39,541 nucleotides of DNA from IMG/VR virus record IMGVR_UViG_3300044821_000134, positions 1 through 39,541 of that record; one strand, written 5' to 3'. Positions 486 to 39,541 of this stretch are shown here, one piece after another. Made by a program: the position numbers and the translations under genes. Each line of letters starts with the position of its first letter. Positions within the stretch are counted from its first letter, which is position 1. The stretch comes from a virus. Below the pieces are notes generated by a model that saw nothing but the letters and a program-made list of their open reading frames with translations, was not told where the DNA came from and did not search any database.

Positions 486-1091
486 CTAAGCCTTGAATCT
501 GCGGACGGCGCGGGCGAGGCCCTCGTAGCTCTTGTCGTCGCTGCCCTGGTAGCCGTCGTAGAAGAGCTGGCTCCAGGCGATGTCAGCCGAGTACTGCGTG
601 CTCGACCAGTACCAATCCTCATCGAAGGCCTCGGCGCCGCCCTCCTGGAATGCGGCGACGTCGGTCTGCGTGGGCAGCTCTTCGGTGTAGGGATAGCCAG
701 GCGGCAGCGAGCTGGGGTTGTCGCCGTTGCGCCAGACGTAGTTCTCGCGCGTCGTCGGCTTGAGGTTGCGATAGCACAGCTCGAGCACGTCGCGGCTCGG
801 GATCGCCCAGTCGCTGAACCCGCCGATCGAGAGCGAGGCGATCTGCTGCGCGAGCACGCTGCCGGCCTCGGCCATGGCCAGGGTGTTGGCGCGGCAGTCG
901 AAGTAGCTGCGCGCGCCGGCGACGTCTTTGCGCTTGGGCGACCAGGCGCCCTTGATCTGGCCGGTCGCCTTGGGCGCGACGACGAGGCCGTAGGCGCCGT
1001 CGGGCATGGCGAAGTAGCCGGCGAAGTGGCCGCCTTCCATGGCGGTGCCGAATGTGAGAGCGGCCAGGGCCGCGACGCGGGGATCATTCAT
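486..1091 (-). CDS. DGR target protein 2, DUF1566-like C-type lectin fold
   Basis: 201 residues. I chose the ATG at 1091 (MNDPRVAAL) because family-like sequence starts there, with GAAAG upstream; the longer frame to 1247 overlaps the next gene. The C-terminal half resembles DUF1566-type phage proteins: GGFSDWAIPSRDVLEL, then GDNPSSLPPGYPYT, then WYWSSTQYS leading into the variable repeat and ending YEGLARAVRRFKA. The repeat forms the extreme C-terminus, as in most DGR targets. No secretion signal. It lies between a small hypothetical gene and target 1 (38-nt and 37-nt gaps). The variable residues include Ile, Ser, Leu, Tyr, Asp, Tyr, Gly, Ser and Asp in place of template Asn. Ligand unknown. 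Confidence 0.9.
   Translation of the reverse strand: MNDPRVAALAALTFGTAMEGGHFAGYFAMPDGAYGLVVAPKATGQIKGAWSPKRKDVAGARSYFDCRANTLAMAEAGSVLAQQIASLSIGGFSDWAIPSRDVLELCYRNLKPTTRENYVWRNGDNPSSLPPGYPYTEELPTQTDVAAFQEGGAEAFDEDWYWSSTQYSADIAWSQLFYDGYQGSDDKSYEGLARAVRRFKA
494..599 (-). repeat. DGR variable repeat VR2 (106 bp)
   Basis: Full-length match to the template at 38806-38911. I count 11 mismatches, all at template adenines (coding strand). The last 38 bp toward the gene's 3' end are identical in the template and every VR copy that covers them. Confidence 0.95.
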
Positions 1092-7459: not shown

Positions 7460-7896
7460 GCCGACACCTCGGCGACTTTCGTCGAAAGGACCGAAGGACT
7501 GATTGGCAATCTGCGGACGGCGCGGGCGAGGCCCTCGTAGCTCTTGACGAGGCTGTGCTGGGTGCCGTTGTAGAAGTACTGGCCCCAGGCGTCGTCAGCC
7601 GAGGACTGCGTGCTCGTCCAGTGCCAGCCGATCTCGATCTCGTCGACGACGGAATTGGCCCAGAGCAGGCGGCTCTCGTGGCGATCTGGCAGCGAGAAGT
7701 CGGCATGGCCGTCGGCCTTGACCTTCTTCGCCCAGGTGCATGCCACCGCCCACGCCAACCGCTTCTTTGGCTTGGCGAGGGCGAGGATCAGGTGGCAGTC
7801 GGGCCGGCCGTCGCGACCGCGGCTGACGCCCATGTAGATGCCGCCTTGGCCGGGCCAGACCTGGCCGATGGCGGGAGCGATGAGGGCGGCGCTCAT
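7456..7896 (-). CDS. DGR target protein 3 (remote target)
   Basis: 146 residues; ATG at 7896 overlaps the upstream stop (ATGA). It has a domain (GIYMGVSRGRDGRPDCHL, HADFSLPDRHESRLLWAN) related to that of target 1, then WHWTSTQSSADDAW and the variable repeat ending YEGLARAVRRL. The frame continues 17 residues past the repeat (PISPSVLSTKVAEVSA), through the conserved post-VR motif, so the repeat is not the extreme C-terminus. Template Asn positions read Asp, Gly, Tyr, Tyr, Asn, Thr, His, Ser and Leu. No signal peptide. It is about 7 kb upstream of the other DGR parts but in the same operon. Confidence 0.9.
   Translation of the reverse strand: MSAALIAPAIGQVWPGQGGIYMGVSRGRDGRPDCHLILALAKPKKRLAWAVACTWAKKVKADGHADFSLPDRHESRLLWANSVVDEIEIGWHWTSTQSSADDAWGQYFYNGTQHSLVKSYEGLARAVRRLPISPSVLSTKVAEVSA
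7485..7498 (-). promoter_or_regulatory. Conserved 14-bp motif downstream of VR3
   Basis: Coding-strand TCCTTCGGTCCTTT, 9 bp beyond VR3. Here it is inside the coding frame of target 3. It is followed by a small CTTTC/GAAAG hairpin. See the matching motifs at 472-485 and 39444-39457. Confidence 0.5.
7508..7611 (-). repeat. DGR variable repeat VR3 (104 bp)
   Basis: Matches the template at 38808-38911 with 12 mismatches, all at template adenines, including one Asp codon (GAC to GTC) and one Tyr codon (TAC to TCC). Confidence 0.95.
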
Positions 7897-37580: not shown

Positions 37581-37717
37581 GCGGTCGCCGTCTCTGAAAT
37601 TGCCGAGCAGCTCGGGGCCCCCACCCCGAGCCCCTCGCCTCCGGCGAGCGGGAATACCGCGCCCATGGCTTCGCCATCGGCGCAACGCTTCAAAGGAAAG
37701 ACGGCGCTGGCGCTCAT
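37577..37717 (-). CDS. Possible small ORF between RT and excisionase
   Basis: 46 codons, linked to the reverse transcriptase stop by TGATG and to the excisionase-like start by ATGA. The composition is Gly/Ala-rich and overlaps a cluster of strong hairpins, so it may be non-coding spacer that merely stays open. Confidence 0.25.
   Translation of the reverse strand: MSASAVFPLKRCADGEAMGAVFPLAGGEGLGVGAPSCSAISETATA
37610..37683. other. Cluster of three hairpins between DGR and integration genes
   Basis: GCTCGGGG/CCCCGAGC (37610-37631), CTCGCC/GGCGAG (37634-37648) and an 11-bp stem with one mismatch around ATGGC-TTC-GCCAT (37659-37683). May limit readthrough or stabilise the RT transcript's 3' end. 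Confidence 0.55.
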
Positions 37718-39075
37718 CAAAACACCCGCGTGAAGCTCGCGCTGACGCTATGCCCGCGCCGACGCGCCGCATTGGCGACGACGGCGCGGTCGTGGTGGCT
37801 ATGGCTGGCCTGGCCGAGCAGGCCGAGGTAGCTATTGGCGACCTGCCAGACGTCGGCGGCCGGCATGGTGGCCAGGCGGCGCAGCGCCACGCGCACGGTG
37901 CGCGGCCTTGTCGTGCGATGCCACGGCCGGATGACGTGGCCGACGAAGTCGATGCCGCGAGCAACGGGCTGCAGGATCGTCTTGCGCGGGTTCAGTTCGA
38001 CGCCGAGCCGCTCAGGCAGGAAGGCCTCGATGCGCGCATGCGCGGCGCCGAGCCACGCCGGCGACTCATGGATCAGGATGAAGTCGTCGACGTAGCGGAT
38101 GTAGCGCGGCGCGCGGAGCTGGTGCTTGACGAGCTGGTCGAGGTCGTTGAGAAAGACGTTGGCGAAGAACTGCGACGACAGGTTGCCGATCGGCAGGCCT
38201 CGCTCGGCGGGCGCATTGAAGAGGCTCTTGTGCGGTGGCACCAGGGCGAGCAGGCCGGCCGGGCTGCGCACGTCGACGTCGGTGCGGGGATCGTGCAGCA
38301 GGATCGTGTCGGCCAGCCAGCGCCACCAGGGCGCGAGGATCCGCGCGTGCAGCTGCTGGCGCAGCACGCGCTTGTCGATCGCCACGAAGAAGTTGGCCAG
38401 GTCGCACTTGAGGTAGTGGGCCGGCTTGCTCCAGTTCTCGGTGGCGCTGCGCACCTGGTGCTCGAGGCGGCGGGCGGCATAGAGCGTGCCGCGGCCGGGA
38501 ATGCAGGCGCACGAGTCGGCGACGAAGGCGGCGTGAAAGCCGGGCGAGATCTCGTTGTAGAGCAGGTGGTGCACGACCCGGTCGGCGAAGTCGGCCGCCC
38601 ACACCTCGCGGGGCTTGGGCCGGGTGACGACGAAGCAGATCGACCGGCCGGGGCGGTAGCTGCCGTCGACCAGGCGCTCGTACAGGTTGCAGAGGTTGCG
38701 CTCGAGCTCGGCCTCGAATGCGAGCGCGCTGGCGCTGTTGCGCTTGTTGCGCCGGCAATCGAGGTAGGCGGCGACGAGCGACTCGAAAGAGAAGGGGGCG
38801 ACGGATGAATCTGCGGACGGCGCGGGCGAGGCCCTCGTAGCTCTTGTCGTTGTTGTTCTGGTTGCCGTTGTTGAAGTTCTGGTTCCAGGCGTTGTCAGCC
38901 GAGTACTGCGTCGTGATGTGCTTTCAAGGTCGCCCTGCCGATCGCTCAGCGGGGTAACTGCGCCGGGCCCGGCCTGGCGTTGGCCAGCGGTCTCCGTGCT
39001 GCGCGTAGCGGTGCCCTCGTGAGGCAGCGGCACAACCAGATTCATGCGCACGGGCACGAGGGCCTTGACCGTCAT
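37717..39075 (-). CDS. DGR reverse transcriptase
   Basis: 452 residues from the ATG at 39075, which overlaps the avd stop (ATGA). RT core from about residue 93: RPKPREVWAADFADRVVHHLL, KCDLANFFVAID (D225), the DGR-specific GLPIGNLSSQ (293-302), catalytic YVDD (328-331) and LNPRKT. Thumb region with FVGHVIRPWHR. It copies the template RNA with errors at adenines. Residues about 55-90 are read through the template repeat in a frame different from the target genes. No ATG, GTG, TTG or CTG occurs in frame between the template repeat and the RT core, so translation apparently passes through it. Confidence 0.95.
   Translation of the reverse strand: MTVKALVPVRMNLVVPLPHEGTATRSTETAGQRQAGPGAVTPLSDRQGDLESTSRRSTRLTTPGTRTSTTATRTTTTRATRASPAPSADSSVAPFSFESLVAAYLDCRRNKRNSASALAFEAELERNLCNLYERLVDGSYRPGRSICFVVTRPKPREVWAADFADRVVHHLLYNEISPGFHAAFVADSCACIPGRGTLYAARRLEHQVRSATENWSKPAHYLKCDLANFFVAIDKRVLRQQLHARILAPWWRWLADTILLHDPRTDVDVRSPAGLLALVPPHKSLFNAPAERGLPIGNLSSQFFANVFLNDLDQLVKHQLRAPRYIRYVDDFILIHESPAWLGAAHARIEAFLPERLGVELNPRKTILQPVARGIDFVGHVIRPWHRTTRPRTVRVALRRLATMPAADVWQVANSYLGLLGQASHSHHDRAVVANAARRRGHSVSASFTRVF
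38806..38911 (-). repeat. DGR template repeat (TR, 106 bp)
   Basis: Read in the target frame it encodes ADNAWNQNFNNGNQNNNDK followed by SYEGLARAVRRF. It is dense in AAC codons, the signature of a DGR template in which adenines are mutated. It matches VR1, VR2 and VR3. The 38 bp at its 3' end (38808-38845 on the plus strand) are invariant. In the target frame a stop lies just upstream, so it is not itself a target gene. Confidence 0.95.
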
Positions 39076-39434
39076 GCTGCAGGCGCCCTGTCGCGGGAAG
39101 ACTTGAGCCAGCCGCCACCTTGCTTACCGATGCTGTCGAGCAGCTGCGTCGCCTGCGCCCAGAGCTTGTTGGACACGTAGCGCTTCTCGAAGGCGACGCG
39201 CAGCAGGATGGTGACGACGTGCTGCAGCTTGAGCAGCTCCTCGATGTGCCGCGCACGCTCGGCGCGCTGGGTCGCGTTGGCCAGGGCCATCGCGTTCAGC
39301 ATGTCGATGCAGTGCGCGCCGATCTTCTCGCCGAGCGAGCGCTTGAAGTCGCGCGGCATCTGCCGCTGGACGTCGAGCGCCAGCGACAGCAGGTCGCAGC
39401 CCTTCTTGTAGATCGGAAGCTCGGTGTGCAGCAC
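39072..39434 (-). CDS. avd: Avd accessory variability determinant
   Basis: 120 residues from a GTG at 39434. Helical throughout and basic: LPIYKKGCDLLSLALDVQRQMPRDF, LGEKIGAHCIDMLNAMALAN, LLKLQHVVTILLRVAFEKRYVS. This is the four-helix-bundle family related to 23S rRNA intervening-sequence proteins; Avd pentamers bind the RT and template RNA. It starts 23 bp after the target 1 stop and overlaps the RT start by ATGA. No clear Shine-Dalgarno is seen. Confidence 0.93.
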   Translation of the reverse strand: MLHTELPIYKKGCDLLSLALDVQRQMPRDFKRSLGEKIGAHCIDMLNAMALANATQRAERARHIEELLKLQHVVTILLRVAFEKRYVSNKLWAQATQLLDSIGKQGGGWLKSSRDRAPAA

Positions 39435-39457: not shown

Positions 39458-39541
39458 TCAAATTGCCAATCTGCGGACGGCGCGGGCGAGGCCCTCGTAG
39501 CTCTTGCCGTCGTTGCCCTGGTTGCCGTCGCCGAAGTCCTG
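39458..39541 (-). CDS. DGR target protein 1, C-terminal part (runs off the window end)
   Basis: Open from base 39541 to the TGA at 39460-39458. Encodes the end of a variable repeat (DFGDGNQGNDGKSYEG) and LARAVRRLAI. It lacks its N-terminus here; the matching N-terminal part ends at base 1 in the same position of the same repeat. Lies directly upstream of avd. Confidence 0.9.
   Translation of the reverse strand, partial: QDFGDGNQGNDGKSYEGLARAVRRLAI
39468..39541 (-). repeat. DGR variable repeat VR1, downstream part (cut by window end)
   Basis: Aligned to the template at 38808-38881 it has 8 mismatches, all at template adenines. Its last 49 bases (39493-39541) correspond to bases 1-49 of the window. 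Confidence 0.93.

Follow-up and report, generated by a model that had tools for sequence, protein, structure and literature searches.

In the DGR of the Bordetella phage BPP-1, organised as avd-TR-brt, the template repeat (TR) ends 144 nt before the annotated start of the reverse transcriptase (RT) gene brt, and the interval contains the structured RNA RF03022. This spacer, downstream of the TR, recruits RT-Avd and primes cDNA synthesis (PMC12875486). A global survey from 2021 describes the TR as "in most cases intergenic" (PMC8144416). The overlap of a TR with the end of the RT ORF was catalogued in 2012, from annotation, as structural group 3 of DiGReF, and the consulted part of that paper takes the arrangement as irrelevant to mechanism (PMC3521204).

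The window, which is the whole 39,541-nt stretch of viral DNA analysed, is closed by a minus-strand phage DGR that reads target gene with VR, avd, TR and RT, the avd-to-RT part occupying the last 1.8 kb (Table 1). It is recognised as a DGR by the adenine differences between TR and VRs, a DGR-type RT, avd and a VR within target coding sequence. The RT core shares 31% identity with BPP-1 brt (L214), the RVT_1 match being to a general and not a DGR-specific model. The RT carries IGNLSSQ at residues 296-302 and YVDD at residues 328-331, both invariant in 25 members of the family described below. For avd the best match is to NCBIfam NF033474, with a score under the cut-off of that model.

Table 1. 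Positions of the DGR features in the window.
Feature	Position	Strand	Evidence or remark
VR, 5' part, probably of the same target gene as the VR at 39468, cut by contig start	1..81	-	14/16 mismatches at TR adenines
VR, 3' end of second target gene (...RRFKA stop)	496..601	-	11/13 mismatches at TR adenines
VR of third target gene	7508..7613	-	12/14 mismatches at TR adenines
RT ORF, 452 codons + stop, ATG start	37717..39075	-	Pfam RVT_1 at residues 161-381, 3e-15
Conserved RT core, 358 codons, begins FSFESLV, first base 38793	37720..38793	-	tblastn to relatives
TR-to-RT-core spacer, 14 nt	38794..38807	-	no in-frame start codon
TR, 106 nt, RT residues 55-90	38808..38913	-	adenine-specific mismatches to four VRs
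RT-15 structured RNA: avd 3' end, leader and first TR bases	38909..39088	-	Rfam RF03018
Alternative in-frame leader ATG (GCGCATGAATCTGG)	39043..39045	-	
Alternative RT start GTG	39055..39057	-	homologous to a frequent ATG with AAGG 5 nt before
ATGA, RT start overlapping avd stop by 4 nt; most likely RT start in the window	39072..39075	-	
avd, DGR accessory protein, 120 aa	39072..39434	-	Pfam PF22296 bAvd, 43 bits against a cut-off of 40
VR, 3' part, target gene just upstream of avd, cut by contig end	39468..39541	-	8/8 mismatches at TR adenines

Between 8 and 14 TR adenines are changed in each of the four VRs, with 0-2 differences at other sites, so that 45 of the 51 mismatches summed over the VRs fall at TR adenines. 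The VR at 496 forms the C-terminal end of its open frame and the other VRs likewise lie within open frames. The two contig ends (1-49 and 39493-39541) apparently belong to one VR and differ at 10 of the 49 shared nucleotides, all at TR adenines. The genome in the window is probably circular or permuted. The assembly probably broke where a DGR makes the population variable, which suggests that the DGR is active.

The sequence-only reading had described an RT frame that is open from an ATG at the avd stop through the whole TR to the RT core, that offers no ATG, GTG, TTG or CTG between TR and core, and that translates the TR in a frame other than that of the targets. The coordinates agree with this description. 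The frame is stop-free from the ATG at 39075 through leader and TR to the core at 38793; the 14-nt spacer holds none of the four codons in frame; and the TR is read as RT residues 55-90 (...RRSTRLTTPGTRTSTTATRTTTTRATRASPAPSADS...), one base off the register of the target frame (...KSYEGLARAVRRF). Inside the TR there are an in-frame CTG (38898) and several ACG codons. An AGGG stands 10 nt ahead of the ATG and gives modest Shine-Dalgarno support. The openness of one sequence alone is weak evidence for a translated leader and TR: the 282-nt stretch is also open in 12% of composition shuffles. This figure, together with the poverty of AAC-rich TRs in stop codons, favours the explanation that the open frame is a by-product of high G+C, AAC-rich sequence and that the RT starts at a rare or unrecognised codon just after the TR, or is reached by ribosome slippage.

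Relatives bear on that explanation directly. They were drawn from IMG/VR, GTDB genomes and phage records (at least 119 loci) and, after removal of loci at least 90% alike, form a non-redundant set of at least 85 members that includes the window. Because the pattern scan relied on an RT-15 sequence motif, members carrying it are over-represented in the sample. The distance from TR to core, measured from the TR 3' motif GTCCGC with alignment columns as landmarks, takes 12 values among the matches listed, and all are 1 mod 3 (85/85 members). On an RT-core tree of 79 of the 85 members there are at least 35 changes of this length and zero changes of frame. The chance of at least 35 frame-keeping changes is about 2e-17 if one third of changes keep the frame randomly; the conserved frame over the 85 relatives is, by this comparison of sequences, not due to chance. 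Across members the spacer has 0 stop codons in the RT frame against 3 and 29 in the other two. The window phage thus shares with at least 84 distinct relatives a TR held in frame with the predicted RT coding sequence. Because the frame from TR to core never changes, translation must begin upstream of the TR 3' end. A start located after the TR would leave the distance free to depart from 1 mod 3 as the length changed at least 35 times, which largely refutes that explanation, and the window's spacer has no near-cognate start either; a post-TR start or slippage is now very improbable. It retains four loci with an ATG directly before the core, which are two near-identical pairs (L007/L054 and L047/L048). 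Among the 85 members listed, 80 lack ATG, GTG or TTG between TR end and core, and the other five have ATG at -3 (L007, L047), TTG at -9 (L045, L142) or GTG at -15 (L191). Note that the spacers of L049, L052, L096, L174, L177 and L190 contain an out-of-frame ATG within a CCATGCTGR-like string, which is frequent among members.

The position of the upstream start differs between groups. The leader is open in the RT frame in 73 of the 85 members listed and closed in about 14% of members. A leader landmark is in phase in 68 members, of which 66 are stop-free as far as the core, and out of phase in 17, which have an in-frame ATG inside the TR (16 members) or 3 nt before the core (one). None of the 85 listed members is without a usable in-frame start. 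Open-leader members have 59 ATGs no more than 12 nt from the avd stop, 55 of them in RT phase and four out of phase. Of the 22 members that make up the window's clade and its close kin, 20 carry ATGA at the avd stop, always in RT phase and at 10 distinct lengths, and the phase is kept through at least 13 length changes; in L002 two leader indels offset each other and the start stays in phase. A second group has an ATG, preceded by AAGG, that overlaps the avd end by 8 nt. The window's GTG is the matching site, where 48 of 64 matched members have ATG, in phase in 44 of these 48, and the AAGG ahead of the GTG lies at 39063-39066. In the third, Pseudomonas-type group the leader is closed or out of phase and there is an in-frame ATG within the TR (at -75/-78 in nearly all), often three codons after a TGA. 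Since a closed leader requires the start to sit in the TR, translation of the whole TR is not universal.

A start inside the TR might then be considered for the window as well, at CTG or ACG in place of the in-frame ATG of relatives; only the 3' part of the TR would be translated and the leader would be purely non-coding RNA. The Pseudomonas-type clade uses such a start, the annotated RT of phage Cruim01 begins at a TR-internal ATG, and the CTG at 38898 is in frame. However, 25 of the 85 members listed, window included, have no ATG, GTG or TTG either in the TR or between TR and core, which leaves only the leader for a start of these kinds. The clustering of in-phase ATGs around the avd stop where the leader is open, and the ATGA kept in phase in the window's clade, also speak against a TR-internal start, which is improbable.

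In L101, L113, L150, L173 and their relatives an RT-frame TGA inside the TR precedes ATG ATG by three codons, as though translation could end and restart within the template. RT starts annotated in related phages lie at -195 (L044), -78 (L050), -3 (L047/L048), +18 (L049) and +81 (L046) relative to the core, and some of these are probably truncated gene calls.

Translation from upstream through leader and TR is probably how this phage DGR of the RT-15 type makes its RT, as the sequence-only reading had proposed and as the comparison of leaders, with frame kept over 12 TR-to-core lengths and ATGA in phase in the clade, supports. The RT lacks a start codon of its own downstream of the template. 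Translation would begin upstream; the likeliest site in the window is the ATG that overlaps the avd stop, and ribosomes would traverse the RT-15 leader and the whole TR before reaching the core. The product would be an RT lengthened by about 90 residues that are probably disordered. Translation from the avd stop through leader and TR into the core would make one avd-RT-15-TR-RT transcript both the RT message and the mutagenesis template, a double use that the sequence-only reading had also put forward, with the suggestion that the two roles might be coupled or in competition.

The extra residues are probably disordered, as AlphaFold models residues 1-90 with a pLDDT of about 28 and the RT core mostly above 80, with a sharp rise from about residue 91. 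Mismatches at codon positions 1/2/3 amount to 0.19/0.16/0.45 in the RT core. In leader plus TR there is no marked third-position excess, from which it follows that the peptide is not conserved as a protein; judged by codon positions, the frame is conserved and the encoded peptide is not. A frame kept without its peptide gives the extra residues the look of a tolerated by-product of the upstream start. The earlier suggestion that the TR is restricted in two frames stands for RT-frame stops and frameshifts, which are avoided, but does not extend to the encoded residues. Counted without conditioning on an open leader, there are 9 RT-frame stops in TRs against 16 expected. The stronger count of 0 against 12.6 expected in open-leader TRs was rejected as circular, members having been chosen for their open frame.

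The leader is a structured RNA as well, a feature that the sequence-only reading had missed along with the shift of starts into the TR in one clade. It matches Rfam RT-15 (RF03018) with 141.6 bits against a cut-off of 82, and 12 of 12 tested relatives of the window's clade also match. Over 58 sequences, 91.6% of the cells of RT-15 pairs are paired, against 32-38% when slid, and 35 of 53 pairs show two-sided changes. Free-energy folding of 290 nt was no better than shuffles (z 0.75); the structure is carried by covariation, not energy. Rfam types RT-15 as an sRNA gene, whereas the window's leader is mostly also open in the RT frame. Within the RT core, fourfold sites near the 5' end are no more conserved than the rest and thus give no sign that the RT coding sequence itself acts as a strong structured spacer. 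The literature search, whose coverage of subscription journals was limited, found no papers devoted to the RT-15 motif.

RT-15 extends from within avd up to the TR, with the avd stop and the RT start in its first hairpin. Translation of avd may by this position be linked to RT synthesis, and RNA free of ribosomes would fold into RT-15 and then be copied. A tentative extension of these steps makes the RT-15 DGR RNA a switch between message and template: termination of avd translation in the first hairpin would open the RT start, while ribosome-free RNA would fold, bind RT-Avd and be copied, a 5' structure having replaced the 3' priming and recruiting structure of BPP-1. Such coupling would be absent if the TR RNA were separate or processed and the RT message, also crossing the TR, were a different molecule. 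This arrangement is compatible with the reading-frame result and is somewhat unlikely: the consulted part of the DiGReF paper infers separate transcription of RT and TR RNA in DGRs generally (PMC3521204), but an RT-15 that begins inside avd and abuts the TR suits one long transcript.

Most of the more distant DGRs examined have a TR that ends about 140-260 nt before the core, with an in-frame start between. Three further groups, known from small samples, have no in-frame start between TR and core. L009, L010, L061 and L063 form a second RT clade (38-41% identical) whose TR ends 21 nt before the core; three of its members were tested and gave no Rfam match. L012 and L013 have about 164-172 nt from TR end to core, and their in-frame ATGs are located 5' of the TR. 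L070, a Micrarchaeota MAG contig, has an RT-16 RNA just 5' of the TR. Phage records OK094664 and OP650936, both 47,902 long and with similar DGR matches, give their hosts as Shewanella and a Tenericutes bacterium, respectively; one host label may be wrong.

The window TR overlaps the RT ORF as in DiGReF group 3, for which the consulted part of the 2012 paper reports no frame conservation, leader RNA or avd coupling (PMC3521204). The TR/RT-ORF overlap was thus already known, and the conserved TR-RT frame has apparently not been reported before; a search with limited coverage of subscription journals brought up no earlier description of such a conserved frame or of TR translation. DGR templates are usually treated as non-coding, whereas in this case the template stays in the RT frame throughout a phage lineage. 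Gene callers place the RT starts of such phages inconsistently, and the native start may be lost from constructs in which the RT begins after the TR or the two are separated. Maturases of group II introns, LtrA among them, are related RTs whose high-affinity RNA site includes their own ribosome-binding site and start, so that they can regulate their own message. To our knowledge no such binding is known for RT-15 DGRs, and the comparison of LtrA with the window RT is an analogy only.

The locus resembles that of BPP-1 in its gene order, in an avd that immediately precedes the RNA element, in the adenine-specific TR/VR differences, and in having RT with Avd. An in-frame start downstream of the TR, present in BPP-1 and in most other DGRs examined, is lacking in the window. 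RF03022 gives no match in the window locus even at E up to 1. In RT-15 members only 10-43 nt separate the TR 3' motif from the RT core, so the BPP-1 model of priming from a 3' spacer cannot apply unchanged and the priming of cDNA becomes a direct question in this system. In place of the BPP-1 RNA family the window has RT-15, which lies 5' of the TR, and 14 nt between TR and core.
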